Translations under genes and position numbers: made by a program | Shown: piece after piece, positions 1-22,361 of the stretch | How positions within the stretch are numbered: the stretch's first letter is position 1 | How the letters are laid out: every line of letters starts with the position of its first letter | Origin: a virus | IMG/VR virus record: IMGVR_UViG_3300024348_001933 | Span: 1 to 22,361 of that record | Strand: one strand, 5' to 3' | Length of the DNA stretch: 22,361 nt | The notes under the pieces: model-generated | What the model saw: the letters and a program-made list of their open reading frames with translations, nothing else | Databases searched by the model: none | Told to the model about the DNA's origin: nothing

Positions 1-2527
1 CGCCATCGTCGTATGCCTCGGCCTGAATGGTCAGCTTCCCGTGCATGCCCTTGTTGCTAGGGTCATCGATGGCAAACTCTCCGTACTTAGCCCTGACGCC
101 AGCCATTTCAAGGTCGGTAACCTTGCGGGCAAATCGCTCGTTGTAGATGCGTTCAAGGTTGATGCGGAAGGGTTTTAGCTCATCAGGCAGGATGAGATTC
201 TGGAGGTTCGTATGGATAAACAGGGACTCTGCGTATCCTGCGACGCCTTCCTCGAACATGAACTTGACCGAGTCTGCGTTACCGACGAGGTAAGCGGCCG
301 GGGTCATCTTGCCCTCTGCGTCAGGGGCAGTCGATGTCCAGAACGCGGCGGAGCCAAACGCACCATTCGCCCTCTGCCTGAGCTCTTCGAGCTCGCGCAT
401 GTAGAACGCCTTGCTTCCTTCCTTAGAGGTGTTGATGCCTTCGTAAATTTCCTTGGCCCTTTTATTGACCTCGGTGATGAACGTCGGGTCGTTGTTGCTG
501 ATGCGGGAAGAAATCTCCTCGACTGCAATTTCAAGAGACCTGCGTCGAGCGGCCCTACTGGCGATGATTTCATCGCTGAAGATGCCTCCGTCGGCCTTGT
601 CTCCAAAGAACCTGCGCAAGTGCTCTCCCAGCTTGCCCTTCTCCCTGAGCGAGTAGCTGACGACGTGGCCGAGGACTTCGTGCCCAAAGTCTTGGAACCT
701 ATGCTTTTCCCTGTTAAGAAACAGGACCGGAACAAATCCGTCCTTACCCTTCTTGACGAGGGTGAAGCTTCCGCCCGCGTCATTGGCACCGGAGAACTTT
801 GAAATCTGCGAAGCATCAATGCCGTGGCTGATGAGCAAGGACTCAAGGCTGGCCTTGTCCCCGACATGGGTAATCAGGTTCTTCCTGTCTGCGGAGTCTA
901 AGGACTGCCAAAGAATCTGAGCGACGCTACGGGTCTGGGACATGACCCTAGTGGACTTCGTTGCGTCAGCGTAATGGGTGGCTTCCCTGATGAAGGATGC
1001 GTAGGAAGGATTAATCTTCTCGACCTGAGGAAGGTATCCTTCGTCGAAATTCTTGACGTGTATGTCGTGGGACAATCCGCCATTCACAAGAGACCAGCCG
1101 TGCCTAAGGGCGCCGCTGTAACCACCCCACATCATGCCCTGTGCGGCACCGCCTACGGCACCACGCTCCTTGTCGGAAAGGTATCCGAGGAATGAGAAAG
1201 TAAGTGCGTCCTTGTAGCTATGCTTAAGGGCAGACGTGGAAAGCTGGATGACCGGGTCAACGACAGTATTCAGCATTTTCGCGGCGACTTTTGCGCTCGG
1301 CGACAGAAGGGGATTCGCGGCTACGGATTCAAGGATGCTGAGTGAAGTCGGGGTTCCGGCTTCGATTACGCCGAAGCTACGCATGGTAGCTTTGTTTCCG
1401 ATTTCCTGAAGGAGCTCGGACGTGGTCCTCAGGCCCATGGAGCCGAGGTAGCCAACAGTCTGCCTAGTACCACCGGCAACGCCACCAAGGGCCACGGATG
1501 CGTCGGTAGCAACAGTCTCTGCGGCGTTGCGAAGATAGCCAGAGGAGAAACCGGTCCTGCTGGACAGGTTGTCAATGGTTCCGCCGATGGCCGCACCGGC
1601 GATGTTGGCCGGAATTTCAAGTGCTTTACCGATGCCAGTAAGCGTTCCACCGACAGCCCTTTGGGTGATTTTCTGGGCAAAGTTATCGAACCTGCTTGCG
1701 GAAGAAGCGAGCGTGTTGCCGATTTTGCCGAACATGCTGGTCTTGTTCGCCAGCCTTGCGGATTGAACGGCTTTTGAGCTGGCCGCGGCGAGACCGAGCT
1801 CAGCAGAAGCACCTCCGGTGAAAGGCGAGGCGATGATGGAAGGCAGTTCCATGCCGATGAACGACATGGCGTGGGCGACCTTAGGATTGATGAAAGACCT
1901 GACCTTCTTGGCCGTGTCTTCGTCCATGTCCATGTACTGCTCAAGGACGGATTCGTCGCCCTGCATCATTCGCATGGAATGATAATTGAACTTACGGGCC
2001 TGATTCCATTGCTGGGCTTCCTCCCTCCAGTTCTGGGAGGCCTTTCCGCTCATTAGGGCTTTGATTGCCGACTTGAATCCGAACAAAACTGAGGTCGGGT
2101 TTTCCGACTCGGCGGCCATGCCCCACAGGTCACGGATAGACCTTACGACGCCTTCTGCCGTGCTTGCCGCGCCCTTTACAAGCCCATCTTCGGCGATTCC
2201 TTCGATGAGGTTTCCGGGGATAGCCGCGATTTCACCACCAGCATCGGCCAAAAGTTGGCCATAGTCGGTGACTCGCTTCCCGTATCCGCGGGTGATGGCG
2301 TTCCAATGCTCTTCTGCGTCAGGGCGGGACAGGTCAATGCCCTGAGTCATGTCCTCCTCGTAATACTTGATTACGTCCTCGTCGGTCTCTTCTTTGGCAA
2401 GGTGAAACCCTGCTGGCCCATTGCTGATTGACGGGCCAAGGTCTAGGCTTTTGCCAGCTTGGTTAAGAAGCATGGCATACCTAGCGGCCTCGTTAAATTC
2501 AGGGCCGGGAGGAGTAGAGGGTTCCAT
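1..2527 (-). CDS. Large internal virion protein with HEVLGH metallopeptidase-like motif (partial)
   Basis: An uninterrupted frame of 842 codons runs from the ATG at 2527 (TAATG overlap with the preceding stop) to the window edge, so the C-terminus is missing. The N-terminal 470 residues are helical and Ala/Gly-rich, with hydrophobic patches such as KALEIPANIAGAAIGGTIDN and GAVGGAAQGMMWGGYSGALR that could insert in membrane. At residues 616-621 is HEVLGH, an HExxGH zinc-binding signature as in the M49 peptidase class; E759/E760 in EEGVAGYAE could supply a further ligand, 138 residues on. The overall build suggests an ejected virion protein with an enzymatic domain, like the long internal proteins of short-tailed phages. 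Proteolytic activity is inference. Confidence 0.7.
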   Translation of the reverse strand, partial: MEPSTPPGPEFNEAARYAMLLNQAGKSLDLGPSISNGPAGFHLAKEETDEDVIKYYEEDMTQGIDLSRPDAEEHWNAITRGYGKRVTDYGQLLADAGGEIAAIPGNLIEGIAEDGLVKGAASTAEGVVRSIRDLWGMAAESENPTSVLFGFKSAIKALMSGKASQNWREEAQQWNQARKFNYHSMRMMQGDESVLEQYMDMDEDTAKKVRSFINPKVAHAMSFIGMELPSIIASPFTGGASAELGLAAASSKAVQSARLANKTSMFGKIGNTLASSASRFDNFAQKITQRAVGGTLTGIGKALEIPANIAGAAIGGTIDNLSSRTGFSSGYLRNAAETVATDASVALGGVAGGTRQTVGYLGSMGLRTTSELLQEIGNKATMRSFGVIEAGTPTSLSILESVAANPLLSPSAKVAAKMLNTVVDPVIQLSTSALKHSYKDALTFSFLGYLSDKERGAVGGAAQGMMWGGYSGALRHGWSLVNGGLSHDIHVKNFDEGYLPQVEKINPSYASFIREATHYADATKSTRVMSQTRSVAQILWQSLDSADRKNLITHVGDKASLESLLISHGIDASQISKFSGANDAGGSFTLVKKGKDGFVPVLFLNREKHRFQDFGHEVLGHVVSYSLREKGKLGEHLRRFFGDKADGGIFSDEIIASRAARRRSLEIAVEEISSRISNNDPTFITEVNKRAKEIYEGINTSKEGSKAFYMRELEELRQRANGAFGSAAFWTSTAPDAEGKMTPAAYLVGNADSVKFMFEEGVAGYAESLFIHTNLQNLILPDELKPFRINLERIYNERFARKVTDLEMAGVRAKYGEFAIDDPSNKGMHGKLTIQAEAYDDG

Positions 2528-3468
2528 TATTCAAGGGTAATTGATTTGCTTCGATACTTCTCAGTATTGATTTGTCGCTGAGATTCTTGGCGTTCAGGAA
2601 GGAAGTCCAGCCCGTTTGCGTGGGCGGTGCTCTTGAGCTTTTCCAAGGTCTGAGCCCTCACCTTCTTGAGGAGGGTCATTTCATTGCCACGCAGTCGGGT
2701 AAACCAAGACGAAGCCCGCTGGGGGGTCATGGCTTGGAATACGGCAAGGTCCCTGTCGGACACCTGACCGCCTAGGCCCTTTGCTCCGCTCATGATTTTG
2801 GCGTAGTCCAGAAGGATTCGGGACTCAAGGCCTCGGGCTTCGGTTGAAGCCTCAGTCGGGCCGAATCCGGTCATGATGGCGTTGTTCTTGTAAAGCTGTT
2901 CCAGCCTAGAGAGGTTGCTCATCAGGTTCTGGCTCTGGCCGATAAGGTCTCGGAAGCCACGGGCGTTCTCATCGCCGCCTTTGAACGGGGCTGACTTGAT
3001 ACCTCGAGCTCTGGCGTACTCCCATACGGCCATACGCTTAGGGCCGGAAGGAGTGGGAACGTCGCGCTCGCCCTTAGGGACGATACGCATGGTCACCTTG
3101 CCGCCGACGCCTTCTTCCCCTTCGCCGAAATCAAAGTCGTACGGGTCAAAAATCTGGAAATTCGAGCTTCCGTCCTTGGAATTCATTAACGCGGACGCGG
3201 CACCATGGTCCCCGATGTCATTGGCGTAGAACATGGCGTCCTGAGAGGCCATTTGCTGGGGCTTTTGCGTTTGGGCGGCGGGAGCACCCATGCCACCAGA
3301 ACCCCTTCCGCTGAAAGCGGCTTGCGCCCCTGCCAGAGGGTTCATGCCCATCTGTCGGTATTGCTGGCCCATTGGGCCGTAGGTGTATCCTCCATCCTGC
3401 CTGCCTTGGGATAGGACATCCCTAGGGCTGACAGAGAAAGAGTCGTTAAGCGACTCGTCGCCTTCCAT
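2527..3468 (-). CDS. Probable internal virion protein
   Basis: A 313-residue protein coupled on both sides by TAATG overlaps. The first 75 residues are Gly/Gln/Met-rich and probably disordered. A short beta-like part follows (about 100-150, including FDPYDFDFGEGEEGVGG), then helices: FRDLIGQSQNLMSNLSRLEQ and ARGLESRILLDYAKIMSGAK. The segment GAKGLGGQVSDRDLAVFQAM resembles a helix-loop seen in phage structural proteins that pack against the particle interior (from memory, not a database match). The C-terminus is basic. An ejection or core role is inferred from position only. Confidence 0.6.
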   Translation of the reverse strand: MEGDESLNDSFSVSPRDVLSQGRQDGGYTYGPMGQQYRQMGMNPLAGAQAAFSGRGSGGMGAPAAQTQKPQQMASQDAMFYANDIGDHGAASALMNSKDGSSNFQIFDPYDFDFGEGEEGVGGKVTMRIVPKGERDVPTPSGPKRMAVWEYARARGIKSAPFKGGDENARGFRDLIGQSQNLMSNLSRLEQLYKNNAIMTGFGPTEASTEARGLESRILLDYAKIMSGAKGLGGQVSDRDLAVFQAMTPQRASSWFTRLRGNEMTLLKKVRAQTLEKLKSTAHANGLDFLPERQESQRQINTEKYRSKSITLE

Positions 3469-4286
3469 TACTGCTGTTCGATGCCGTACTGCATCGCCTT
3501 GTAGCTGGTCTTCTTGTCCTTGCCCGCCATGGGGGCCATGACGACGACTCGGCCTTCGCCTCCGGCAGTCCTAGCGACGCCCGGAAGGACGTAAGGCTCC
3601 TTGCCAGCGAGCTTTAAGGCTTCCGTGTCATGAGCGATTGCATCCGTAAGGAAGGAGTGCATCTTCTCAGGAGGAAGTTCGCCGTTCATGACTGCGGTTC
3701 GCATCTTCTTGTATTGCTCTGCTCCGATGGACTTAATGGCGGTATCGACCCACTTGGACTGACTCCTTAAGGCTTGGTATTTGGGGGCGGAAAAGGTGCT
3801 GGAACCGCCAAGCTTGTCCTTTTGGAACTTCTCGCGGAACTTAATCATTTCTTCGTTGGCTCCCGGATTCTTGACGCCGTTTTCATCGACGCCAGCTTCG
3901 GTTCCATCGCCCTTCATCATGTAGCCAAGCGTACCGATGCCACCGCCATAGACGGCGGCGTTGCCTCCAATCTGAAGGCCTAGGCCGGTAGAGTTGAGAG
4001 TCCTCTCGCCAAGCGTGTTTACTGTTTTGGTCACAGGGCTCATTTGCTGTGCCGCACCACCCGTGCCAGCAAGCTGTCCAAATGCGGCGGTGACGTTGCC
4101 CCTGTTAGAGCTATCGATGACCTGCTTGGAGCTGAGAATTGGTGCCTTGTTTCGGGTCTGGACTCCGAATCCACGGGCAATGTTGGTAGCCCATTTGCCC
4201 ATGTTCAGAGAGTCACCAAGACTCTTAAGTCCGCTACTTCCGAACATCTTCTTGATGCCTCTGGCACCTTTGGTGAATTTACTCAT
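3468..4286 (-). CDS. Probable internal virion protein
   Basis: A 272-residue protein starting 2 bases after the 661-residue gene and ending in a TAATG overlap. The N-terminus (MSKFTKGARGIKKMFGSSGL) is a cationic amphipathic segment of the same kind as in the 233-residue protein near the terminase. Gly-rich hydrophobic stretches follow (about residues 100-124: LGLQIGGNAAVYGGGIGTLG), then a helical part (MIKFREKFQKDKLG, AEQYKKMRTAVMNGELPPEK), and a basic C-terminus. It may act with its neighbours in ejection. No family recognised. Confidence 0.6.
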   Translation of the reverse strand: MSKFTKGARGIKKMFGSSGLKSLGDSLNMGKWATNIARGFGVQTRNKAPILSSKQVIDSSNRGNVTAAFGQLAGTGGAAQQMSPVTKTVNTLGERTLNSTGLGLQIGGNAAVYGGGIGTLGYMMKGDGTEAGVDENGVKNPGANEEMIKFREKFQKDKLGGSSTFSAPKYQALRSQSKWVDTAIKSIGAEQYKKMRTAVMNGELPPEKMHSFLTDAIAHDTEALKLAGKEPYVLPGVARTAGGEGRVVVMAPMAGKDKKTSYKAMQYGIEQQ

Positions 4287-4288
4287 GA

Positions 4289-6274
4289 TTATCGAAAGCG
4301 ACGCATCGGGTTAGGACGCGGGATTGGGGAGATTTGAGGGTTGGCATTGTTGCGAGCATCAACCTTTTGACGCTCCTGCTCAGCAATCATCTTCGCGATT
4401 TCTTCTTGGCTCATGGGCTTCTTAGGCGCAACACCCGGAGGACTGGACTGCTGAGTCAACGCACCCTGAACGGCGTTACGGACTGGGGCACCGATATCAG
4501 GAGCCTGCGGAACGCCCGGAGTTGCCGTGTTAAGTCCATACGGACTAGGAGCCATCACATTTCCGGGCATGCTGGACTGCTGGGTAAGGGCCCTGTCAAC
4601 GGCACCACGCACAGGGGCACCAATGTCAGGGACTTGAGGCATACCCGGAGTCGCCGTGCCAACTCCATACGGAGTAGGCTTCATGATGTTCGGATTGGTA
4701 CTAAGGAACACTCCGTCTCTCTTGGCGGAATCAAGTGCCTGCGGTCCGTACTTCTGCTCTGGAGTCATTCCGGGAGTCGCACTAGGTCCAAGCAATGAAG
4801 CGCGAGACGGGGATGGTGCCGTTTGAACCCGAGGAGTCGTCGCCGCGGCATTTACCTGAGCAGGCAACGGGGCCTGCGGGGCTGGGGCCGTAGTGTTGCC
4901 TCCAAAAATCCTAGCAGCTTCTGCGTCGCGAGAAGCCTGACCAGTAGGGCTGACGCCCATCCGATGCTGAGGTGCGATGTAATTCCTAGCCGCCTGAGCA
5001 TTGGCCGTGGCTTGCTTTTGATGCCTCTCAAAAAGTGCTTTCCATTCAGGGCTGTTGAGAGAGTTCTGCATCTGAACATCAGACTTCTGGCCCCTAGCGT
5101 TCATGTAAGCCTGTTGCTCAATAGAGATAGGACTCTGTCCGTGGAATCCTTTCTGCGTGGCGATAGTTGCCTGAGCGTTCCTGACTTCTTCGGGGTTCGT
5201 GGCTGGCTTAAGGTCGATTTCACCAGAGCGAGCCTTATCCTGAGCTTCAAGGGAAGTCTGGGCGGATGCCGAGGCAAGGGCCTGCTGTGAGGCCGACTGC
5301 TTCGCGATGGCTTCTTCGGCAAGCTTCTGGTTGCTGGCGGCGTTTGCCTTCGGGTCTCCGTAGTAGCGAGCAGAAGTTTCTTCATCGGTAAGTCCAGCCC
5401 CAGAAAGCAATGCCTCCATGTTGTTCTTGTCACCGCCAGAAGCTTCTTGAACGTCGAGATAAACCTGACGTCCTGCTTTGGCGGCGTAAGGAGAGGAAAT
5501 AGCCGCAAAGACTCCGTCCTTGGCCTTGATTGCTTCGTACTGTTTTAGGGCCGCGGATTCTTCGGCCTGAGCCATTTCGTCAATCGCGGGCTTGATTCCG
5601 CCGCTACCCCTTACCTTTCCTCGTCCAAATTCATTGTCGAGAAGTCCTTCAGTCATGAACTTGCCCATGGTGCCTTCCATGTTTCTCCGAATTTTGCCTT
5701 CGTTAGCGTCACCCCTCAGCTTGCCGACAATGTTTTCAAGATTCAGGTTCCTAGCTTTGCCAAGCCTTCTGTCATATTCCATGCCGCCAAGAAGACCAAC
5801 AGCCTGTCCGGCACCCGGAATAAAGCTGAGGGCATTGAGAACTCCTCCGCCAATTTTCTCCGCAGTTCCTCGCTGGTCGGCATTTTGTGCGATGTATGCC
5901 CTAGCGTCTGCTTCACTCAATCCGTTCTCTCCGATAGCTCCGGTATCCCTGAATGCCTGACCTGAGGCTTGGGCTTCTTGCAACTGTTCGTCGGTCATGT
6001 CTGCCCCGTACCTGAGCTGATTCATAGCCCTCTGCATAGTTTCGTCTTCCTCGGGGCCAGAGTCACCAATAAGGCTTCCAAGGCCAAGGGCCACGGCCCC
6101 GCCAGCTTTAAGGTTGCGAACCCCTTTCGCGCCCATCTTGCCGACCAATGCTCTATTAGTGGCATAGCCTGCGTTCTTGGCGAATTGAGGGGCATACGTC
6201 GAGGGCTGAATGGCCTTCGGGGCGTAATTCCAAACGCCCTTTATGGTATCCCAAATTGCTTTACCTTTTGCCAT
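4289..6274 (-). CDS. Probable internal virion (ejection) protein, Ala/Gln-rich with tandem repeat
   Basis: A 661-residue protein. The basic N-terminus (MAKGKAIWDTIKGVWNYAPK) resembles a membrane-active helix. Two Gly/Ala hydrophobic patches follow: about residues 57-70 (AGGAVALGLGSLIG) and 143-164 (beginning GGVLNALSFIPGAG). The centre (about 235-430) is a long Ala/Gln/Glu helical region. The C-terminal third is Pro/Thr/Gln-rich and includes two near-identical 39-residue units at 533-571 and 576-614. The build (large, helical, with hydrophobic patches, after the nozzle gene) suits a channel-forming or head-internal ejection protein as in T7 and N4-like phages. No enzymatic motif is visible and homology is not recognised. 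Confidence 0.6.
   Translation of the reverse strand: MAKGKAIWDTIKGVWNYAPKAIQPSTYAPQFAKNAGYATNRALVGKMGAKGVRNLKAGGAVALGLGSLIGDSGPEEDETMQRAMNQLRYGADMTDEQLQEAQASGQAFRDTGAIGENGLSEADARAYIAQNADQRGTAEKIGGGVLNALSFIPGAGQAVGLLGGMEYDRRLGKARNLNLENIVGKLRGDANEGKIRRNMEGTMGKFMTEGLLDNEFGRGKVRGSGGIKPAIDEMAQAEESAALKQYEAIKAKDGVFAAISSPYAAKAGRQVYLDVQEASGGDKNNMEALLSGAGLTDEETSARYYGDPKANAASNQKLAEEAIAKQSASQQALASASAQTSLEAQDKARSGEIDLKPATNPEEVRNAQATIATQKGFHGQSPISIEQQAYMNARGQKSDVQMQNSLNSPEWKALFERHQKQATANAQAARNYIAPQHRMGVSPTGQASRDAEAARIFGGNTTAPAPQAPLPAQVNAAATTPRVQTAPSPSRASLLGPSATPGMTPEQKYGPQALDSAKRDGVFLSTNPNIMKPTPYGVGTATPGMPQVPDIGAPVRGAVDRALTQQSSMPGNVMAPSPYGLNTATPGVPQAPDIGAPVRNAVQGALTQQSSPPGVAPKKPMSQEEIAKMIAEQERQKVDARNNANPQISPIPRPNPMRRFR
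4433..4549 (-). repeat. Tandem repeat unit 2 (39 codons)
   Basis: Second copy, residues 576-614, beginning PSPYGLNTATPGVPQAPDIG and ending LTQQSSPPG. The shared core includes PYG, TATPG, PDIGAPVR, ALTQQSS and PG; most differences are single-residue changes, so the duplication is old enough to have diverged but still obvious. Confidence 0.75.
4562..4678 (-). repeat. Tandem repeat unit 1 (39 codons)
   Basis: First copy of a Pro/Thr/Gln-rich unit in the 661-residue protein, residues 533-571, beginning PTPYGVGTATPGMPQVPDIG and ending LTQQSSMPG. The copies are spaced by 43 residues (129 bases). Confidence 0.75.
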
Positions 6275-6279
6275 AATCG

Positions 6280-6888
6280 TTAGTCATTAAGGTCGTCGTC
6301 GATGCCTTCCCAGCCGGGAATGGTCTGTCGAACGGGTGCTTCGTCGCGGGCGTCTGGCTGTGGGGCGACGGGGCGTGCGGCCTCCATCCCAAGCGTGCCT
6401 TGCGCGAACGGGTCAGCGAAATTGTTTTGGCCGATGCCTTTTAGGTAACCGCGGCGGCGCGAATTGCTACCGCCCATGCTACGCTTCATCGTATCAAGTG
6501 CCCTCTTGGCACCTTCATACTCATCGCTACCGGGTTCGTAGGACTCGAGTACGTTCTGGTAGTGGTCCATTACGGCCTGCTCTTCTCCGCCAAGCTCATC
6601 GCCTGCAGCCTGTTCCTTGGCCGAAGCTTCTTCTTCAGCCTGCTGGGTGGCGTACTCATCGGCTTGGCTCTGAAGCCCAGCCTTGTAGTCGCCGAGCGCA
6701 AGTTGCATGCCGAGGGTGCCAGCGATGCGTTCCCTTTGGAGCTGTTTCTGGAACATGCTTCCTAGGCCCTGCTCTTGGCCAATCTGTGCGGCCTTGAAAG
6801 CCTGACCGAGAGGTTCGTATTGGCTTTGGACTGCGGCCGATAGGGTGTCGCGGCTTCCTCCGCCGCCTCCTAGTTCTAGTCTGTTCAT
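6280..6888 (-). CDS. Gln/Gly/Ala-rich hypothetical virion protein
   Basis: A 202-residue acidic protein. It opens with a Gly5 stretch (MNRLELGGGGGSRD), then Gln/Ala-rich helices (LGQAFKAAQIGQEQGLGSMF, SQADEYATQQAEEEASAKEQ) and a short helix YEGAKRALDTMKRSM. The C-terminus is Pro/Asp-rich and probably disordered. No domain recognised. The composition is like that of small internal or ejection proteins; this and its place in the block are the only support. Leader CATTTAACA has no Shine-Dalgarno sequence. Confidence 0.6.
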   Translation of the reverse strand: MNRLELGGGGGSRDTLSAAVQSQYEPLGQAFKAAQIGQEQGLGSMFQKQLQRERIAGTLGMQLALGDYKAGLQSQADEYATQQAEEEASAKEQAAGDELGGEEQAVMDHYQNVLESYEPGSDEYEGAKRALDTMKRSMGGSNSRRRGYLKGIGQNNFADPFAQGTLGMEAARPVAPQPDARDEAPVRQTIPGWEGIDDDLND

Positions 6889-6890
6889 TG

Positions 6891-7628: not shown

Positions 7629-7630
7629 GT

Positions 7631-13265: not shown

Positions 13266-14672
13266 TTACGACAGGTTGGACCTGTAGTCGAACATACCGA
13301 AGGTCAGGGGGCTGTGGACGAGCAGAGCCGCCATAGCCTCCATCATGCGACGAGGACCGCCGCCGTTTTCGGTGAGTTCGCGAACCTGAGCGATGTTACC
13401 GCCGTAGCGGACTTCGAGGTAATCCCACGGGATGACGAAGCCCTTGCACTTGGCGTTTTCGGCATGCAGGTTGGCACGGACCTTGGCCACAGCGTAAGCG
13501 GCGTTTCGGTCAGCCGCCGTGTTCGAGGCCGCGGCGATGACGAGGTTGTTCGCGGTGAGAGCACCCTGCTGGGCGCCGGTCATCGTGGCCTTAGCGGCTT
13601 CGAGACCGCCGTTGCCGACAGTAATGACACCAGCGGTGTTGCCGTCGCCAGTCTGAGCCTTGACGCGGTTGTCTTCCGTGGTCGTACGGCCGTCGTACAG
13701 CTTGAACTTCTGGACGCCACCTTCGGTGTATTCGACGATGGTGTAGGGGTTGACGCCAGCGTGGAGGAACTGGGTCGGGATGAGCGCGAGCTTACCGAAG
13801 TCGCCCTCGAAGTAGTCAACGGACGCCTTGATGGTGTCAGCGTTGGCATCGCGGGTGGAGCGGATACCGGACTGGGCAGGGGTGCCAGCGGGAGCACGGG
13901 TCGTGTAGACGAGTTCCGTGAACTGACGCTTGAGTTTGGTACCGACGACAGCCTCATGGTTCTTGAACTGGCCAGTCTGCTCATAGACGGAGGTCATGAG
14001 GTCCTGAACAGTATTCTCGTTCAGGTTTTCAACCAGAGAGTTCGTGCCGATGATGGACGACTCGGGGGTGACGAAGTTTTCGTCGATGGTGCGGATGTCC
14101 TGATTCTGGACGCCGTACTTGTCCGCGTTCTTGGAAGCCGTGGCCTTGTCCTTCTTAATCCAAGCCGTGAGGCATCGGGTGCGATAGGGGGTGACGCCGT
14201 CGTCGATAGCGGGCAGGATGTCCGAGGTGAAGGTGATTTCCATCGAACGCTTGAGGTCGATGGTCGCCTTCGCCAGCTGACGGGACAGTTCATCCTTCAC
14301 ACCAGCGAGGTTGAGGATGTCCTGAGTCAGGTTGGAGACGTGCACGGCACGGCGGAACAGGTGGATGTTGTTTTCAACTTCCGTCCTGTAGCCGAGGGTG
14401 TACTGCTTGAAGTCCGAGTTAGTGCTCGGGTTGGTCGGGTCAACGTCCTTGCCGTCAAGGATGCCGAGCTCAACGGAGGGGTCCGGGTTGCGGTCCACCT
14501 GCCAGCGGAAGGTGGTGTTACCCGGCTTGGAGCCGCGGCGAGCCATCGAGGAGATGGGGGTCTCCTTGGCATCGACGTTGGTGATGAGGTCGGAGAGCTC
14601 CTCGCGGATACCGACTCGGGCGCCCTGAAGGGGACGCTGATTCTGGAACTGGGACTCGAATAGAGAGGCCAT
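13266..14672 (-). CDS. Major capsid protein, SU10-like (DUF5309 type)
   Basis: Forms the icosahedral or prolate shell. The N-terminal half matches the SU10 major head protein family: REELSDLITNVDAKETPISS at residues 23-42, FRWQVDRNPDPSVELG at 55-70, and VKDELSRQLAKATIDLKRSMEI (125-146), typical of HK97-fold proteins with a long spine helix. At 468 residues it seems long for the family, with an Ala/Thr/Gly-rich region at about 335-405 that may be an insertion. The last part (GGGPRRMMEAMAALLVHSPL) closes the fold. Arginine codons are almost all CGC/CGT, unlike neighbouring genes, fitting very high expression. The leader ATCATCATCACT before ATG has no Shine-Dalgarno sequence. Confidence 0.9.
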   Translation of the reverse strand: MASLFESQFQNQRPLQGARVGIREELSDLITNVDAKETPISSMARRGSKPGNTTFRWQVDRNPDPSVELGILDGKDVDPTNPSTNSDFKQYTLGYRTEVENNIHLFRRAVHVSNLTQDILNLAGVKDELSRQLAKATIDLKRSMEITFTSDILPAIDDGVTPYRTRCLTAWIKKDKATASKNADKYGVQNQDIRTIDENFVTPESSIIGTNSLVENLNENTVQDLMTSVYEQTGQFKNHEAVVGTKLKRQFTELVYTTRAPAGTPAQSGIRSTRDANADTIKASVDYFEGDFGKLALIPTQFLHAGVNPYTIVEYTEGGVQKFKLYDGRTTTEDNRVKAQTGDGNTAGVITVGNGGLEAAKATMTGAQQGALTANNLVIAAASNTAADRNAAYAVAKVRANLHAENAKCKGFVIPWDYLEVRYGGNIAQVRELTENGGGPRRMMEAMAALLVHSPLTFGMFDYRSNLS

Positions 14673-14690
14673 AGTGATGATGATTAGGTC

Positions 14691-15668
14691 TCAGATGAAC
14701 TTGTTTCGGAACACGTCAGAGAGGTCATCGAGGGAGGAGGATTGCCTGTACCTGCTTTCCGCGAGCTTGGCCTTCACGGCATCGGGCTTTTTAGCCGACG
14801 ACGCGGGGGCGTAACTGGAGGTGGGCTGGACAGGGACTCGCATGGCGACTCCGGATTTGGCTGCTTTCTTCTGGCTCTGGTATGATGCCATGCCCGAAGC
14901 GAGGTGGGCGGCGTAGATTTCGTAGTCAGGGTACTTCCTAATCTCAGGGACGGAGTCCACGAACCTAGAAGCCATGATGGTCCTAGGGTCGGTCTTATCC
15001 TTGAGCCAAGGGAATTCCTTGCGAGCCGCAGACGCGAACGCCTTCGACTTCTCGACGTAATCTAACTGCTTGGGCAGGTGGTCTTCCATGGCTCGGATTG
15101 CGTTAACTTTCGCCTTCGCAATCGATTCCTTGTCAACCGGCTCCTGTCCGTCCTCGTAGTAACCATCAGGGTATCGTTCGCAGAACAGTCGGATTTCCTT
15201 TTGCCTCTCGTACTCGGCCTGAATTTTATCCTCATCGTCAAACGCGCTGAATGGATTGTTGGCGTTGGCGCTGGGGACGGCCTTGGAACGCTTGAGAGTA
15301 TCAAGTTCTTCCTCCAATTTCTGTGCTCGTTCCTCTGCTTCCTTTCGCAGGGCAGTAAGCTTGGAGATTCGCTTGTCCACGCCCTTAGGCTGGGGTCGCG
15401 AGTCCTCATACTGCTCTGTCGATTCTTCTTCTTCCGTATTCTCGGCTTCGACTTCAGACGCATCTGAAACGTCTTCGTCAGCCGCTTCCCCGGTTTCATC
15501 GGTCTGGGGTTCCGATTCCTGCGAGCCGTCCGCAAGAGCTCTTCCAAAGAATTGGGAGAGCTTTTCATCATCAGCGAGGTCGGCACGCTCGCTTGGTTGG
15601 GCCATGAGTTGATTAACCTCGGGCTCAAGGCCGAGGGATTCGGGGTTATCCGGATTGTTAGGGTCCAT
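14691..15668 (-). CDS. Capsid scaffolding protein
   Basis: Guides procapsid assembly and is lost before or during packaging. The 325-residue sequence has the expected make-up: a strongly acidic, probably disordered N-terminal part (residues about 49-90, rich in Glu and Asp), a coiled-coil-like charged segment with KRISKLTALRKEAEERAQKL (about 99-130), a helical central region, and a basic Ser/Ala-rich C-terminal tail ending DDLSDVFRNKFI that could bind the capsid protein. It lies between portal and major capsid genes, the canonical place. No protease domain is visible, so self-processing is not supported. The start at 15668 follows the 67-base gap and has no Shine-Dalgarno motif (ACGCTGACT before ATG). 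Confidence 0.85.
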   Translation of the reverse strand: MDPNNPDNPESLGLEPEVNQLMAQPSERADLADDEKLSQFFGRALADGSQESEPQTDETGEAADEDVSDASEVEAENTEEEESTEQYEDSRPQPKGVDKRISKLTALRKEAEERAQKLEEELDTLKRSKAVPSANANNPFSAFDDEDKIQAEYERQKEIRLFCERYPDGYYEDGQEPVDKESIAKAKVNAIRAMEDHLPKQLDYVEKSKAFASAARKEFPWLKDKTDPRTIMASRFVDSVPEIRKYPDYEIYAAHLASGMASYQSQKKAAKSGVAMRVPVQPTSSYAPASSAKKPDAVKAKLAESRYRQSSSLDDLSDVFRNKFI

Positions 15669-15735
15669 AGTCAGCGTTACTTAGCACGCAGAAGTAGTCA
15701 AAAGGTTGTCTGTTATGCCTGAATCACAAGACGCA
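15669..15735. other. Largest intergenic gap (67 bases), before the scaffold gene
   Basis: The one stretch longer than 25 bases without a supported gene. On the coding strand it contains TTTTGACTACTTC and TAAGTAACG, which loosely resemble promoter hexamers, but the spacing between TTGACT and TAAGTA is only 12 bases, too short for a sigma-70-type promoter. No inverted repeat fit for a terminator is visible. A 7-codon frame beginning at the TGATG overlap is too short to call. It could hold a late promoter of unfamiliar type or an mRNA processing site upstream of scaffold and capsid, the two genes that need highest expression. Confidence 0.35.
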
Positions 15736-16017
15736 TCACGTTCGCGCTCCGGTTTGATTCGGATTGGATGGCTTTTCCCTCATGGTCACCTTGAGCATGT
15801 AGTCTCGGTTAGCCTGAAACATCCTCAAAATGTCATTGAACGCAGAAACCCTGCCAGCGGCGTGGGCGCGAGCCTCACCAGTCGTCTGGGGGAGCATGAC
15901 GGAGACGAGGTCATTCTGGAAATTCTCATCGGTGATGACGAGAACGGCTTTGTAGAGCTCCTCTGCGTCATTGTTGACGAATCCGAACGCCTTCGTGTTT
16001 GGGTCGATGTTATCCAT
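15736..16017 (-). CDS. Hypothetical protein between portal and scaffold
   Basis: A 93-residue protein starting 3 bases after the portal stop. It is mostly helical-looking, with DAEELYKAVLVITDENFQND and a second amphipathic stretch containing FNDILRMFQANRDYML, and a basic C-terminus (NPNQTGART). No domain recognised. Small helical proteins between portal and scaffold occur in many podovirus-like genomes and may take part in head assembly, but that is context only. No Shine-Dalgarno sequence precedes the ATG. It is followed by the only sizeable non-coding gap in the window. Confidence 0.65.
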   Translation of the reverse strand: MDNIDPNTKAFGFVNNDAEELYKAVLVITDENFQNDLVSVMLPQTTGEARAHAAGRVSAFNDILRMFQANRDYMLKVTMREKPSNPNQTGART

Positions 16018-16020
16018 GGA

Positions 16021-18258
16021 TTAAATCATGCCCATTCCCTGAAGCGGGTTGGGTACGCCGCCGCCCTGAGGGGCCTGCATCGGCTGTTGCTCCTGCTCGG
16101 CCTGAGCCTCTCCCATTTCCTGCTGGATTTGGTCAGATGCTGGAGAAACTCCGATTCGTCCGATTTCCTTGTTCTTCTGCTGTTCGACGGACATCTGCAG
16201 GTTCTTCTGGTAGTTCTCCAGCAGAATCTGGAAGATGCGGTCCGACTGTGCGGCGGTAGCGGCCTTCGGGTTCTTCTGCAGGATTTCCTGCAAGTAAGAC
16301 ATTTTGGACTCAGCCGACGGGTCGTTTTCGACGTACAGGGCTTCGTTGCCAAGCATCATGAGGGCGACGTCGTTCATGACGTCCTTGTACATCTTCTGCG
16401 AAGCGGTGGTCTGGTCGATGACAAGCTCCCTCGCGGCATCCGGCGAGATGGCTTCGATGACAAGCTTGACGAGCTTGTTCCTGTCGATGACGCCACCGCT
16501 GTCCAGCGGGACGACAGTCTCGACGATTGCCTTAAGCTTCTCCATGACGAACTCAGGGTCGGTGTCCCTGACGTCAAACCTGACGTTGAAGTCGTACTGG
16601 CTGTGGATTTCCGACATGTTCTGCTTGAGGGGAGCGCCCGTGATGCGGGTGACTTCTTCTTCTGGCATGAACTGAAGGCACAGGGAGAACAACTGCTTGT
16701 AAGTCTGAGTCCAGAAGCCGAGCCAGTTGTTGACCTGAAGCTGTTGGAGCATCCTGACCTTGTTGGGGTCGATGGTTTCTCCGACGATGAAGCCGTAGAA
16801 GTTGCCCAAATTGGTCTCAATCTGCTGGATGACGCTGATGGCGAGCTCAGCCTTGCCCTGCGGAGGCTCCATGAAGGTGTAGTCATCCTTCGTAGAGACG
16901 GGAAGAACCTGACCGGGGGCGATTCTGTTCAGCGCACCGACCCTTTTGACCACCTTGACGGCGGGCATAATCTCAAGGGCGACGCGGTCCCTGAAGGAAT
17001 CGTGCATGGCCTTGACCTCATCTTGCTCGGTCTTGGAGATTTCCGGGATGCCACGGCTTTCGGTGACCTGACGACGGGTCATCTCGAACCTGATTGCGAC
17101 GAATGGGTACTCGCCGTGGGCATAGTTAAGCAATTCCTGAAGTGCGTACAGCTCGCTACCGACATGCGGGGACATGACTGTGTAGTAGATGGCCGGGACG
17201 CCCGTCTCATCAATCTGTCGGTAGTACGCCCAGACGATTTCAATGAGGTTGTCTCCACGCTGGATGTTCGAGTTGAGCATCGTGGTGGTCGGAACGAGGT
17301 TCGGGTCGTTGAAGTAGAAGTGATTGCCCATCGTCTTAGCCGCCGCCTCGATGAACTCAGGATTCCAACCTGCGTTTTGGGCCATGGACCGGAGTTCGAC
17401 TTCGGTCATGTACTGCCTTCGGAAGATTACGCGGGCCTGCTGGAGGTCAGAAGTCTCAGGAGGGAAACAGACTTCGTCGTACGGCTTCAGGGCCGTGACC
17501 TTCGGAAGGTTCTTCTGGACGTAGATTTCCTCGAGCTCTCCTTGGCCTTCTTCGCGCATCTTCTTGACGAACTTGCGGAGGTCCTTGGACTTCATCATCG
17601 GGAACTTCTCCTTGATTAGCTCGATGGCGAAGTCCTCTTTGGCTGGATTCATGATGGCACCGATGAGCTTGGAGGTTTCGCCACCGCCCATCTGCTGCTC
17701 CTGCTCCTGCACGGCATACAGCTCATCCATCGTCAGGGACTGCTTCCTGATGCCAAGCTGTCGGTCCCAAGTAATCTGGGCGATAGACCAGCCATAGGTG
17801 AGCATGTAGTCTGCGACTAGCTCAGCCTCACGCTGGACCTCGGACCTGAGCTTGGTCTCGATAAGCCACCTCATGAGGTTGGTCGCGCTGGAAGCGGCCA
17901 TGGTATCTCCGACTTCCGTGCCGCCGACCTTCAGGGTGGAAGCGTTGTAGGAAGTCATCAGCATGGCCTTCTGGTCGCGGATAAGCCTGTCAACGAGACG
18001 GACGCGGACGTCGGAAGCACCCTCGAACGGGAAGGCTGGGTCACCCTCTGGGCGGGCCCAACTGTGCTTCTTGCCGTCATCGGTCTGTCCGGGCCAGCGG
18101 GCGTAGCGGACGTCGTCTGCCCAAGACATCTTGGAGACCATCGTTCCGTGGTATGCGGAGCGTTCGTACTCCTCGAGGAGCACTTTAATGTCCGGCTTCC
18201 TCTCATGGTAGACGAGAGGGTCGCGGAGATGCTTGTTGTCTTTAAGCCTGTTGCTCAT
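16021..18258 (-). CDS. Portal protein
   Basis: The dodecameric ring at the head vertex through which DNA enters and leaves. At 745 residues it matches the large portals of short-tailed phages. Portal-like features include the N-terminal WARPEGDPAFPFEGASDVR segment, the helical region with EVQREAELVADYMLTYGWS, the beta-rich LIEIVWAYYRQID/ PAIYYTVMSPHV clip-like part, and the long stretch with QVTESRGIPEISKTEQDEV followed by the helix VRMLQQLQVNNWLG. The last 60 residues are Gln/Gly/Pro-rich and probably disordered, or line the barrel. Its position directly after terL and before scaffold and capsid is canonical. The ATG lies within the end of the HTH gene, with no Shine-Dalgarno sequence, implying coupling. 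Confidence 0.93.
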   Translation of the reverse strand: MSNRLKDNKHLRDPLVYHERKPDIKVLLEEYERSAYHGTMVSKMSWADDVRYARWPGQTDDGKKHSWARPEGDPAFPFEGASDVRVRLVDRLIRDQKAMLMTSYNASTLKVGGTEVGDTMAASSATNLMRWLIETKLRSEVQREAELVADYMLTYGWSIAQITWDRQLGIRKQSLTMDELYAVQEQEQQMGGGETSKLIGAIMNPAKEDFAIELIKEKFPMMKSKDLRKFVKKMREEGQGELEEIYVQKNLPKVTALKPYDEVCFPPETSDLQQARVIFRRQYMTEVELRSMAQNAGWNPEFIEAAAKTMGNHFYFNDPNLVPTTTMLNSNIQRGDNLIEIVWAYYRQIDETGVPAIYYTVMSPHVGSELYALQELLNYAHGEYPFVAIRFEMTRRQVTESRGIPEISKTEQDEVKAMHDSFRDRVALEIMPAVKVVKRVGALNRIAPGQVLPVSTKDDYTFMEPPQGKAELAISVIQQIETNLGNFYGFIVGETIDPNKVRMLQQLQVNNWLGFWTQTYKQLFSLCLQFMPEEEVTRITGAPLKQNMSEIHSQYDFNVRFDVRDTDPEFVMEKLKAIVETVVPLDSGGVIDRNKLVKLVIEAISPDAARELVIDQTTASQKMYKDVMNDVALMMLGNEALYVENDPSAESKMSYLQEILQKNPKAATAAQSDRIFQILLENYQKNLQMSVEQQKNKEIGRIGVSPASDQIQQEMGEAQAEQEQQPMQAPQGGGVPNPLQGMGMI

Positions 18259-18448
18259 TCTTGGGAGGGGTTGAATTTACTTTGAGGAAATTTTCGATGT
18301 CGTCTCGGTAGAACATGTGCTGTTTGCCGACAGTCGTGAAGACGCGGAGGGCTTTTTGCCTGCGGAGGCGGATGAGCGTGGTCTTGGACAGTCCGTAATG
18401 CTCGGCGGCTTCAGCTAGCCTGAGCAGGGGTGGAATTTTGTTGTTCAT
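18242..18448 (-). CDS. Small MerR/excisionase-type helix-turn-helix protein
   Basis: A 68-residue DNA-binding protein. The frame could begin upstream at 18553, but that lies inside terL; the ATG at 18448, one base after the terL stop, is preferred. Residues about 8-30 (LLRLAEAAEHYGLSKTTLIR) form a helix-turn-helix of the excisionase/MerR type, followed by basic RLRRQKAL and a wing-like segment with HMFYRDDIENFL typical of HTH_17 proteins. The end overlaps the portal start by 17 bases. Lambda Nu1 small terminase uses a related winged fold, so this may be a TerS-like DNA-recognition subunit. A transcriptional regulator embedded in the packaging operon is the alternative. Confidence 0.8.
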   Translation of the reverse strand: MNNKIPPLLRLAEAAEHYGLSKTTLIRLRRQKALRVFTTVGKQHMFYRDDIENFLKVNSTPPKNEQQA

Positions 18449-18449
18449 G

Positions 18450-20078
18450 TCAGTAAGAGCCTCCCCCGATTGCCTTGTACGAATCGCTACCGCCGTAGTC
18501 GGGTTGCATGACGGCGATGTAGCGTAGGGCGTCGATTGGGTCTTTGGACGCACCCTTCTCGTTGTCCAGACCAGTCCACTCGCGCAAGCACCACATGAGG
18601 TTGTGGCACTCCTCCGAGATGAACAGCTTGGGCTGGTTGATGGCCGAGATTTCTTGGTTCTGGTCGTAGGCGAACCAGTCGTTGATAATGGAAATGCCTT
18701 CCTCTAGCCTGAGGCCAGCGGCAGGAGTGAAATACATGGCACAAGGCTCCTCGTCCAAAAGCTGGAGGAGGGTGGTTCCGCCTTCCTTGTTGATTACGGG
18801 CGAGCCAGCGGCCCTAGGGTCGATGTACCTTTCGGTGATTTCCTCCCCGTTCTCGAGAGTCAGGATGTGCTCCTTGATTTCCGTGAGACCCATGCCAGCA
18901 CCTTGCTTCTGGGCGGGGCCGGGACGTCCGTCTGGCTTCTCTGATGGGAGGGCCCACTCGCCCATGCTGATGTCTGGCCATTCCCTGTAGACGAACTTGT
19001 TGCCGTGCTCGTCGATGCGTAGCCAAACCATGAACCAATTTCTGGCACCAGCAGGGTCAACGGCCATGTAGTTGGTGCCCTCCTCTGGAATCTGGTCCGC
19101 TGGGATGATGTTCGCTTCTCCGAATCTCGGGAATTGGGAGCCAGCGAGCGATTCTGCCCATCCGTACGCACGAATCTTGACCTCGTACGGACCGCGACCA
19201 CGCAATGCGAGCTTGATTTGCTCGAACGGAGAGTACCTATTGAGGATGGAATGGAACCAGATTACATTCGCGCTACCCTTGGAGCACTCAGCTATGTATG
19301 GCATGTGGCCCTTAGGAATCCCCGGCACATTCTGAGTCTCTGGAAGTAAGTCTGCGAAGCGGGTCTTTTTGATGCGGCACCCGGCGACGTAGTCCTTGAC
19401 GACAGGCGTGAAGCCCGTGATGGGCGTGAAAGTGAGAATCATCTTACCGCTTCGGGTGACCAGTCGGTAGCGAAGGGTCTCAATCCAGTCCTGCGGGACA
19501 AGCTCGTCGCACCAAATCAGGTCGGGTTCGCCACCTTCGATGACCTTCTTCTCCTGCCCGTAGTTCATGAAGAAGCATTGCGAGCGATTAGGAAGGACGA
19601 ACGTGGCGTCGGTGAAGCCGTTCTTCTGGGAATACTGGATGTTGGTGACCTTGGTCTTCTTGGCGTTCTTGAACTCAGGGGGCATGTACTTCCAGATGAC
19701 GGCCTGTTGCATCTGGATGGAGGTCTGCGACGTCGTGTGCAGGCACCAAATTCTGGAATTAGGACGGGTGCAAAGCAGTTGCATCACCCTCTTGGCGGCA
19801 TACTCCGTCTTGCCTGCTCGGTTACCGCCCATGATGAGCAGTTCGTTGCCACCCATAAGCAGCGTGTCGGCGTCCGCCCAGCTCTCGGGCTCGTAGCCAT
19901 GCCTGTACGGGTCGGTTATCTCTGCCTGAATCTTCTCCTCGCGCCGCTTCAGGACTTCGGCCGTCTTCTCAGCCCCGATGGTCTGGGCAAGGCCGATTAC
20001 CTCATCTTCCGTAGGAAGGTGGATGATGGGGTGCTTCGTGAGTCGCAACCCTGCCACATTCACTACGTCTAGGCTCAT
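18450..20078 (-). CDS. terL: Terminase large subunit (ATPase/nuclease)
   Basis: The packaging motor that cuts concatemeric DNA and pumps it through the portal. The 542-residue length is usual for the family. The N-terminal ATPase has a Walker A GGNRAGKT at residues 84-91, a Walker B DLIWCDE at 186-192 (D191/E192 as metal and catalytic acid), and a coupling motif around TFTPITG at 216-222. The C-terminal RNase H-like nuclease shows an acidic triad: D341 in AVDPAG, D420 in YIDPRAAG, and D513 or D516 in DPIDALRY. All key residues are present, so the enzyme looks intact. The start is set by the ATGA overlap with the upstream gene and a GAGG-type sequence before it, one of the few plausible Shine-Dalgarno sites here. 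Confidence 0.96.
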   Translation of the reverse strand: MSLDVVNVAGLRLTKHPIIHLPTEDEVIGLAQTIGAEKTAEVLKRREEKIQAEITDPYRHGYEPESWADADTLLMGGNELLIMGGNRAGKTEYAAKRVMQLLCTRPNSRIWCLHTTSQTSIQMQQAVIWKYMPPEFKNAKKTKVTNIQYSQKNGFTDATFVLPNRSQCFFMNYGQEKKVIEGGEPDLIWCDELVPQDWIETLRYRLVTRSGKMILTFTPITGFTPVVKDYVAGCRIKKTRFADLLPETQNVPGIPKGHMPYIAECSKGSANVIWFHSILNRYSPFEQIKLALRGRGPYEVKIRAYGWAESLAGSQFPRFGEANIIPADQIPEEGTNYMAVDPAGARNWFMVWLRIDEHGNKFVYREWPDISMGEWALPSEKPDGRPGPAQKQGAGMGLTEIKEHILTLENGEEITERYIDPRAAGSPVINKEGGTTLLQLLDEEPCAMYFTPAAGLRLEEGISIINDWFAYDQNQEISAINQPKLFISEECHNLMWCLREWTGLDNEKGASKDPIDALRYIAVMQPDYGGSDSYKAIGGGSY

Positions 20079-20647
20079 TCCTCATCCTCCATGTTGGAGT
20101 AGGACGCGGTCACGGCCCTATCCCATTGCCTCAGGTTCAGTACTGGAAACGCTCCGTTGAAAGTCAGTCCCTTGAACCGGAAAGGCCCAGCGGTCACGCT
20201 GTTCACGGGCAACCCCATGGTAGGAACCATGTTCTTCATGCTACCGACTGCCTCCTGTGCCAGACGCGACAACTTGCCGTCTCCGCTGATTCGGCCGGAG
20301 GCCGAAGCGAAATTTTTGTATGGCTTGATACCAGACTTCGCACCGCCCCCAGAGAGGTCTCTCTGCGGCGGCATACGCTCAGTCTGTTTGACCATGCCGG
20401 TAGTGGCAGGCCCCTGAAGGTTGGCCATAGGATGGTCACCCCAGTAAGACTTACGGCCCTCAAGGGCCTTGTTGCTCGCTTCCAGCTGGGTGTAATGCGT
20501 GAGCTGACCCAAGCTGTTCCGTTCAAACTCGGATTCCAGCTTGGAGTCGCCCCGCGTACCAGCCTTGCGTTCAAGACTAAGAATCGCCGCCGGGTCCAGC
20601 TTTGGGTTATCCCCGCTGGAGATGATGACGTCCTTATCTTCGGGCAT
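20075..20647 (-). CDS. Hypothetical protein immediately upstream of terL
   Basis: A 190-residue protein starting directly after the TAA of the membrane peptide and overlapping the terL start by ATGA. The sequence is polar and Gly/Ser-rich in the middle (about residues 85-120); the C-terminus is more hydrophobic (FRFKGLTFNGAFPVLNL) and ends MEDEE. The gene before terL is often the small terminase subunit, but I see no helix-turn-helix or coiled oligomerisation region here, so that identity is not supported. A virion-associated protein is equally possible. The purine-rich 3' end (GAGGATGAGG) lies just upstream of the terL ATG and may serve as its ribosome binding site. Confidence 0.6.
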   Translation of the reverse strand: MPEDKDVIISSGDNPKLDPAAILSLERKAGTRGDSKLESEFERNSLGQLTHYTQLEASNKALEGRKSYWGDHPMANLQGPATTGMVKQTERMPPQRDLSGGGAKSGIKPYKNFASASGRISGDGKLSRLAQEAVGSMKNMVPTMGLPVNSVTAGPFRFKGLTFNGAFPVLNLRQWDRAVTASYSNMEDEE

Positions 20648-20752
20648 TTAGCCTACGATGCTTTCCCAGATTTCGAGAAGCTTCTCGGAGTAGCGGGCGC
20701 CGACATAGACGCCGCCGAGGAAGGTGATGGATGCGATGATGAGAGTAATCAT
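20648..20752 (-). CDS. 34-residue single-pass membrane peptide
   Basis: A short frame (35 codons including TAA) starts at an ATGA overlap with the preceding gene and ends exactly one base before the next ATG, so it fills the interval without slack. Residues 2-18 (ITLIIASITFLGGVYVG) are a clear hydrophobic helix, followed by a short mixed-charge tail with R20, E23, K24, E27 and E30. In T7-type phages a small membrane protein (holin 17.5) lies just before the terminase genes, so a lysis-related role is one possibility; a small membrane or virion accessory peptide is another. The tight packing and membrane segment make it more credible than a random short frame. Confidence 0.55.
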   Translation of the reverse strand: MITLIIASITFLGGVYVGARYSEKLLEIWESIVG

Positions 20753-21033
20753 TTGGATGGGTCGTACTTGGAGTATTCGCCGGGGCCGTAGGTCTCGCCC
20801 ATACGCCATGATGCGATTCTTTTGGAGTTGGCACGAAGGGAGGACTTGTTGCCGTACTTGTCGGTAATCAGCGGAATCTTCCTACCCCTAGCGACCTTGC
20901 TGGCCGACGTGGTAGAGTCCCTCATGTCTTCAAGCTTGGCGAACGGGATGCCCTGCTTTTTCTTGGTCCAAGCAGAACCGCCAGACTTGAACATCTTGGC
21001 GGCAGACGAGAGAAGCTTCTTTGGAATTTTCAT
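20749..21033 (-). CDS. Small basic hypothetical protein
   Basis: A 94-residue protein whose ATG overlaps the preceding TGA (ATGA at 21033-21030) and whose own TGA overlaps the start of the membrane peptide below it. The N-terminus (MKIPKKLLSSAAKMFKSGG) again has a basic amphipathic character, the middle is Lys/Arg/Ser-rich, and the C-terminal part contains WRMGETYGPGEYSKYDP. No conserved domain recognised. Position and composition group it with the other basic proteins before terL; function unknown. Confidence 0.6.
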   Translation of the reverse strand: MKIPKKLLSSAAKMFKSGGSAWTKKKQGIPFAKLEDMRDSTTSASKVARGRKIPLITDKYGNKSSLRANSKRIASWRMGETYGPGEYSKYDPSK

Positions 21034-21731
21034 CGAGAGGAGTTCTTCTGTCGCTGGTAGTGGTTCTGCATGGCGTCGTTCGCCTTGTGGACGCCATAGC
21101 CAGCGGCGATGGAGGCACCGGTGATGATGCCAGCACGGCGGTTCTTGGACATGCCGGGCTTCTGGTAGGACTTGACGAATTCGTCGTCGCTGATGCGACG
21201 GCCAATCTTGTAGTCGGACGCCTTAGGTCCCTTATTGGTCATGTATCCACGACCAGACCCGCCAATAGGGCCACCACGCATCTTGTCGGCCTTCTTGACG
21301 ATGTCAGGATTACGCTTGGCGAAATCGTTGTACGCCTCACGGGTGACACCCTTGGGCCTGTTGGCCTTGATGTACTTGTCCCTGTTGGGAGCCTTGGCCT
21401 GAATGAAGTTGGCCCTGCCAGCTTCGGCCATCTTGCCGTGGTGGTACTTCTGGGCAGAGGTTTCCTGCACGTCGCTAAGGTGCAGACCGCCACTACGTCC
21501 GGTCCGGTAACCCGCCTTCGCGTCCTTGACGCCGCGACGTGCGGCGGCACCTGCGGAGTTGGCGGCATCGCGAGCACCGCGAGCACCTTTGATTACGGAG
21601 GCTTGGGTGTTGCGGGTGCCAGCGCCGAGCTTATCGACGGAGCTACCGAGGCCCTTGCCAATTTTGCTACCAAGCTGGGTGAGATACCTCACACCCTTGC
21701 CGACAGCCCTACCTGCTTTGAACATACTCAT
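21030..21731 (-). CDS. Basic Gly/Ala-rich hypothetical protein, possible virion component
   Basis: A 233-residue protein rich in Lys, Arg, Gly and Ala. The first 30 residues (beginning MSMFKAGRAVGKGVRYL) read as a cationic amphipathic helix. A long disordered-looking basic region follows, and near the C-terminus there is a short hydrophobic patch (AGIITGASIAAGYGV, about residues 205-219) between basic stretches. That patch is too short and glycine-rich for a confident membrane segment. Similar Gly/Ala patches occur in the 661- and 272-residue proteins downstream, so a minor or ejected virion protein is a reasonable guess. The leader before the ATG is A/T-rich without a Shine-Dalgarno sequence. 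The stop overlaps the next start (ATGA). Confidence 0.6.
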   Translation of the reverse strand: MSMFKAGRAVGKGVRYLTQLGSKIGKGLGSSVDKLGAGTRNTQASVIKGARGARDAANSAGAAARRGVKDAKAGYRTGRSGGLHLSDVQETSAQKYHHGKMAEAGRANFIQAKAPNRDKYIKANRPKGVTREAYNDFAKRNPDIVKKADKMRGGPIGGSGRGYMTNKGPKASDYKIGRRISDDEFVKSYQKPGMSKNRRAGIITGASIAAGYGVHKANDAMQNHYQRQKNSSR

Positions 21732-21747
21732 TTTTGTTGGGTAAAAA

Positions 21748-21996
21748 TTATTTCTTGGTCTGGGATTTCTTCATGGACCAAGAGGATTGAGCCGGGGAAG
21801 AAAGCTTACGCTCGATGTAGGCACGGGCACTATTCTGCTGTTGCCTGAACTCGACGTGTGCCGAGTCCTCTCCAGCCTGAAGGCGAGCGTTCCAGTCAGG
21901 GGACAATTTCGGCATGTCCACCTTCCTGCGGCTTTTTTTCATGTAGGCCGTGCGGAACTTGCGTCCGACGTTGCCAATCATCTTCATCATTCCCAT
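21748..21996 (-). CDS. Small basic hypothetical protein
   Basis: An 82-residue protein, strongly basic at both ends. The N-terminus (MGMMKMIGNVGRKFRTAYMK) looks like a cationic amphipathic helix; the middle is polar with a run of Gln; the C-terminus ends in a Lys/Ser-rich tail. No family recognised. It starts 24 bases after the 13-codon frame, with no Shine-Dalgarno sequence (AAAAAGCCC precedes the ATG), and ends 16 bases before the next gene. Together with the 233- and 94-residue genes it forms a cluster of basic proteins upstream of the terminase. A minor virion or DNA-binding role is possible but unproven. Confidence 0.6.
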   Translation of the reverse strand: MGMMKMIGNVGRKFRTAYMKKSRRKVDMPKLSPDWNARLQAGEDSAHVEFRQQQNSARAYIERKLSSPAQSSWSMKKSQTKK

Positions 21997-22020
21997 GGGC
22001 TTTTTATCAGGCGGCGGCGG

Positions 22021-22062
22021 TTAGCACCGCTTGCCACCTTTCTTCTTGGTGTTCTTCTTCAT
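22021..22062 (-). CDS. Possible 13-residue basic peptide MKKNTKKKGGKRC
   Basis: A 14-codon frame (ATG to TAA) starts inside the stop of the upstream gene in an ATGA arrangement, the same coupling used at three other junctions in this window. The encoded peptide is almost entirely Lys, Arg, Gly and Asn with a terminal Cys, similar in composition to the basic proteins encoded just downstream. There is no Shine-Dalgarno sequence, so translation would depend on re-initiation. It fills what would otherwise be a 62-base gap. It is too short for any homology call and may be only a leader or coupling peptide, or no gene at all. Confidence 0.3.
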   Translation of the reverse strand: MKKNTKKKGGKRC

Positions 22063-22349
22063 TGTGAGTTGCGCTTGATAAGGGTGTTGAGGCGGAGGAT
22101 TGAGGTCGGGCGATGCTCGCAGAAGTATTTGCCTCCGCGATGCTTAATCACGACGGGCATCTTCGGTTTGAACGGCCTTGAGTCGAAAACGTTGCAGAAG
22201 ACCGACTTTCCGTTCTCTAACTTGACCAGCATGACGCGTCGATTGGGGTAGTCGCACCGCAATACGTCTGCCTTGACCAGATTCTCCGGTTCGGCCTCGG
22301 CGGGCTTCATGACCTTGACTTCGTCCGGGACGGCGGTGACCTCAATCAA
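22059..22349 (-). CDS. Hypothetical small protein, probably truncated at its 5' end
   Basis: Not recognised. The reading frame runs 96 residues from a TTG codon at 22349, but the same frame stays open through the codons above it (S-K-F-G-L) to the window edge, so the true start probably lies outside. The C-terminal half alternates short beta-strand-like stretches with basic residues (VLRCDYPNRRVMLVKLENGK, then FKPKMPVVIKHRGGKYF), which could be a small beta-barrel, but no family can be named. Its TGA stop overlaps the next ATG (ATGA at 22062-22059), placing it in the same translational chain as the genes below it. Confidence 0.6.
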   Translation of the reverse strand: MIEVTAVPDEVKVMKPAEAEPENLVKADVLRCDYPNRRVMLVKLENGKSVFCNVFDSRPFKPKMPVVIKHRGGKYFCEHRPTSILRLNTLIKRNSQ

Positions 22350-22361
22350 GCCAAACTTGGA

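Follow-up and report, generated by a model that had tools for sequence, protein, structure and literature searches.

Absence of GATC from phage genomes is strictly associated with a phage gene encoding a predicted PD-(D/E)XK-type endonuclease

The tetranucleotide GATC is absent from a viral DNA stretch of 22,361 nucleotides (IMG/VR record IMGVR_UViG_3300024348_001933; the whole stretch is called the window here), and this absence is strictly associated with one phage gene, fam25, in the family of the window and in unrelated phages infecting different hosts. We suggest, with a probability of about 0.8, that fam25 encodes a GATC endonuclease of the PD-(D/E)XK type that acts without a methyltransferase, the phage being protected by purging the site from its own genome.

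The window contains the large terminase, scaffold and head genes. The features referred to below are as follows.

1..22361, both strands: GATC-free stretch (0 observed; the expectation is 81.7 under a second-order Markov model and about 100 under synonymous-codon shuffles)
13266..14672, minus strand: major head protein (PHROG 1328, E 3.1e-30)
18280..22361, minus strand: segment shared with contig L001 (4,082 bases, 99.98% identical), which extends beyond the window
18450..20078, minus strand: large terminase subunit (PHROG 2, E 2.9e-16), used for finding relatives
22059..22361, minus strand: 3' part of the conserved gene fam7 (function unknown), truncated where the window ends; the window gene nearest to the fam25 locus

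Positions 2-2527 of the minus strand hold the N-terminal part of a giant open reading frame, also seen at L085:2-16258. It encodes 5,419 amino acids in G002, one of the relatives, and as many as 6,459 in others, and has no match in Pfam or PHROG.

The original prediction, made by reading the letters of the window, held that GATC is missing where some 80–90 sites are expected, and the counts bear this out: among all 256 tetramers, GATC is the most depleted one under the Markov model. The codon usage it described is also there. Isoleucine following a codon that ends in G is written ATT 49 times, ATA three times and ATC never, as compared to 236 ATC and 48 ATT after other codons, and aspartate preceding a codon that starts with C is GAC in 77 cases and GAT in none. 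The loss extends beyond the window, as near relatives of 46–49 kb are devoid of GATC over their full length (0 observed in both, 193 and 202 expected). This extent is one of two corrections, the other concerning the words lost. The loss was described as specific to GATC, and while GATC does head the list, several other words are eliminated as well, namely CCWGG (observed/expected 0/82), ACSGT (0/33), CACTG/CAGTG (0/23), GCCGGC (0/17), GCWGC (6/61) and ATAT (2/23). Further, GCGC, listed among the four-base palindromes that are present, is depleted (39/93).

The fam25 gene is situated outside the window, about 1.57 kb past position 22361 on the window minus strand (L001:4109-4573). As L001 overlaps the window at near-complete identity, the window's own phage carries fam25. 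The terminase has 80 relatives in viral contigs. Among them, fam25 is present in all GATC-free ones with the locus covered and in none of those retaining GATC; the GATC-free records with no fam25 match (e.g. G014, G018) are incomplete. Relatives that have the neighbouring genes fam8 and fam22 and lack fam25 all retain GATC. Within this family alone, the association is confounded by phylogeny, and a different gene, fam11, fits the loss of GATC equally well. Gene candidates for the other lost words in this family are confounded in the same way. The Pfam analysis of 100 representatives of accessory genes from the GATC-free relatives yielded no methyltransferase families, that is, the cognate methyltransferase characteristic of a restriction-modification system was not found in this set.

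The fam25 protein has about 120–160 residues and matches PHROG 13596, a family of unknown function. The alignment of 27 proteins features invariant E30, E44-V45-K46, G56-N57, E61 and S69-G70; E30 followed by E44-V45-K46 corresponds to the PD-(D/E)XK hallmark, an acidic residue and then (D/E)-x-K. The AlphaFold model (pLDDT 83) shows modest structural similarity to PvuII (the best, Z 5.2), Eco15I/NhoI (4.9) and RecU (4.9), with Sau3AI and DpnI scoring below these. For the same model, Foldseek returned nothing at E below 0.001, the best E being 0.07. Searches of Pfam and NCBIfam matched fam25 to no nuclease family, including the DpnII/MboI, Sau3AI and MutH profiles, and no relatives were found in PDB sequences, plasmids, NCBIfam and PADLOC.

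Outside the window family, fam25 matches 42 phage records, mostly Pelagibacter phages. Carriers include phages of SAR11 and of SAR116, along with phages of unassigned host. GATC is absent from HTVC022P (0/95), HTVC120P (0/76), HTVC011P (0/81) and C72C1 (0/121), as well as from the parts of the HMO-2011 (0/156) and C75C1 (0/97) genomes covered by the counts, whereas HTVC010P, not among the fam25 matches listed, has 131 sites with 139 expected. In the first fam25 scan, 78 loci contained no GATC (2380 expected), and in the second one, 147 loci contained 13 (3665 expected). Other tetranucleotide palindromes in these loci mostly occur at 0.5–1.0 of the expectation, GGCC being lower (0.38 and 0.49).

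After merging of overlapping contigs, 274 distinct fam25 contigs remained, 234 with the TGN motif and 40 without it. The former, whose proteins form 59 clusters at 70% identity, contain six GATC sites (7,752 expected). Out of the latter, 32 have variants of the motif and hold a single GATC, and the remaining eight constitute a single lineage. Hence 266 of the 274 contigs harbour seven GATC sites in total, with about 8,470 expected. The TGN motif was considered as a requirement and dropped, since the variants TGS, YGN and TSN are likewise GATC-free.

The eight contigs belong to the lineage of L346 and L429-L439, the sole fam25 lineage with a normal GATC frequency, 36 sites against 30 expected from codon shuffles; it has a deletion across the otherwise conserved TGN segment. 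At that, the non-palindromic AATC/GATT is observed there nine times with 229 expected, whereas in the TGN-bearing sisters GATC is absent (0/118) and AATC is normal. The enzyme of this lineage has presumably either lost its activity or come to recognise a different word. As several further words besides AATC are missing from the lineage, the switch of specificity is just a possibility.

Polymerase-based samples were collected blindly with respect to fam25. For the HMO-2011 type, contigs were fetched by DNA polymerase, and only those extending at least 6.5 kb downstream, where fam25 is situated, were counted; many non-carriers are short. All eight carriers are GATC-free, as compared to one (L550) of 11 non-carriers, the other ten having GATC at 0.16 to 0.65 of the expectation. 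Such intermediate levels would be consistent with slow return of the sites after loss of fam25. The HMO-2011-type contigs L531, L532, L552, L559 and L567, which have no fam25, show GATC at 0.16–0.33 of the expectation, a level suggestive of a recent loss of fam25. The HTVC011P sample comprises 57 carriers, all of them GATC-free, and three non-carriers, in each of which the polymerase match lies at or within 4 bases of the contig end.

In pelagiphages, fam25 is located between the genes for DNA polymerase and an exonuclease, and in C75C1 between an annotated methyltransferase and an exonuclease. In the latter phage (L162:12092-13884), the fam25 homolog directly adjoins the annotated DNA methyltransferase, yet the analysed stretch has no GATC.

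According to the proposed mechanism, fam25 would cut GATC-containing DNA during infection, the target being the host chromosome, broken down to supply the replication of the phage, or mobile DNA that competes with the phage, or both. The phage DNA would be spared by the removal of every GATC, mostly through synonymous choices, and a newly arisen site would be cut within the same cell; hence a count of zero, and not simply a low one. The exonuclease and polymerase neighbourhood favours nucleotide supply as the likely role. Several points speak against reading fam25 in this way. The lineage of the window has purged many other words with no known phage gene, fam25 has no sequence match to known GATC enzymes, and its structural matches are modest. 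In addition, the non-carrier L550 is GATC-free and other non-carriers of the HMO-2011 type are partly depleted, although loss of fam25 followed by slow return of the sites would account for this.

The host of the window phage is probably a member of the Verrucomicrobiota. A terminase-profile scan of 84,980 species genomes gave two matches, both in this phylum, and relatives are present in eight of the 384 genomes of the respective class, which is the basis of this assignment. A Verrucomicrobia metagenome-assembled genome (L163) contains a truncated relative of the terminase, accompanied by genes resembling fam7 and fam8, near a tyrosine-recombinase-like reading frame; no word avoidance was seen in this region.

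The original prediction ascribed the loss of GATC to restriction in the host. In this case Sau3AI/MboI/DpnII-type systems of the hosts would have selected against the site, fam25 being a recombination nuclease carried by coincidence. Elimination of sites under the pressure of host restriction-modification is well documented (PMC6286503), numerous further words missing from the window family coincide with known Type II sites, and DpnII-family genes occur in three out of 93 genomes from the class to which the host probably belongs. However, the loss of GATC goes together with a single phage gene, whether the phages infect SAR11, SAR116 or others, also in the sample blind to fam25, and relatives without this gene keep the site. 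Moreover, SAR11, the host of many carriers, reportedly has no restriction-modification systems and has a GANTC methyltransferase (PMC9516812), which argues against host restriction there. Thus the pressure does resemble that of a GATC-cutting enzyme, as originally suggested, but the evidence favours a phage enzyme over a host one; host restriction as the cause of the GATC loss is unlikely and probably wrong. For the other words lost in the window lineage, it is a live explanation.

Another alternative is that fam25 acts at GATC in some way other than double-strand cleavage. It may nick the site in the manner of MutH, cut it depending on methylation as DpnI does, or bind GATC and have to be kept off its own genome. 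Each of these would purge GATC equally well, and the model bears a weak structural resemblance to DpnI and Sau3AI. However, the closest folds are those of orthodox cutters such as PvuII, and methyl-dependent cutting would have no role in SAR11, which methylates GANTC rather than GATC (PMC9516812). We consider these variants unlikely. Finally, chance or base composition, for which no support was found, has a negligible probability and is refuted by the codon-shuffle comparison and by codons switching exactly where GATC would form.

The words lost by the terminase relatives vary by branch. GATC is absent in most relatives, and AGCT, CCGG, CGCG and GCGC in many; one branch keeps GATC and misses GTAC, and another one keeps GATC and misses ACGT, AGCT, CATG and CGCG. 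In 36 genomes (G001-G036), all tetramers scored as eliminated are palindromes. Of the 15 non-palindromic hexamers scored in this way, 7 are REBASE sites, which is an enrichment compared to 120 of 2016. Both observations indicate sequence-specific enzymes. For ACSGT, lost in 19 genomes, and for ATAT, the version of REBASE consulted lists no matching enzyme, and these two words may point to specificities not yet described. The clade of the window (G000, G001, G002, G006) has AGCT at full expectation, although it is nested among relatives without AGCT, CCGG and CGCG; hence words seem to return or get lost repeatedly. A more general possibility, which we regard as rather doubtful, is that fam25 exemplifies a broader strategy, in which phages possess several lone nucleases, each specific to a word that is purged from the genome; natural variants, the AATC-poor lineage among them, would then represent switched specificities.

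Phage nucleases that break down host DNA include T4 endonuclease II and T7 endonuclease I acting with an exonuclease. T4 DNA is spared by modified cytosine, and the T7 enzymes are not word-specific. The role proposed for fam25, destruction of host DNA for nucleotides, is similar, and exonuclease genes adjoin fam25 in several phages; the difference is that neither T4 nor T7 protects itself through the loss of a 4-base word.

Virus-encoded GATC endonucleases, as fam25 is predicted to be, are known in chloroviruses, where R.CviAI of PBCV-1 cuts GATC and the system reportedly serves to recycle the DNA of the host, and in marseilleviruses, with the restriction-modification pair mel_015/mel_016 of melbournevirus (PMC7253447). 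There, the sites are kept and protected by a GATC methyltransferase (PMC7253447), whereas the window family is GATC-free and no methyltransferase was found. That a viral genome can lose almost all copies of a Type II palindrome is also familiar from restriction-site avoidance in phages, but there the loss is ascribed to host enzymes (PMC6286503), and here it tracks a phage gene. The chimeric nuclease of ICP1 likewise attacks other DNA in a sequence-specific manner, but it is aimed at a subviral parasite, the PLE satellite, and not at a 4-base word absent genome-wide (PMC8263062). Neither the link between fam25 and GATC nor a lone viral enzyme combined with a purged genome was found in the open-licence literature searched.

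If the proposed function of fam25 is correct, this gene, widespread among marine and freshwater phages (those of SAR11 among them) yet left unannotated, would encode a sequence-specific nuclease that is kept safe by the very composition of the phage genome. The usual inference would then be reversed, as a site missing from a phage would no longer reveal the enzyme of its host, and a simple rule, the gene present and the word absent, could be used to find phage nucleases together with their specificities. Were the strategy indeed a general one, the missing words would list the phages' own enzymes and not only those of the hosts. The function proposed for fam25 would also hint at ways in which these phages could reuse the DNA of their hosts or keep out rivals in waters poor in nutrients.
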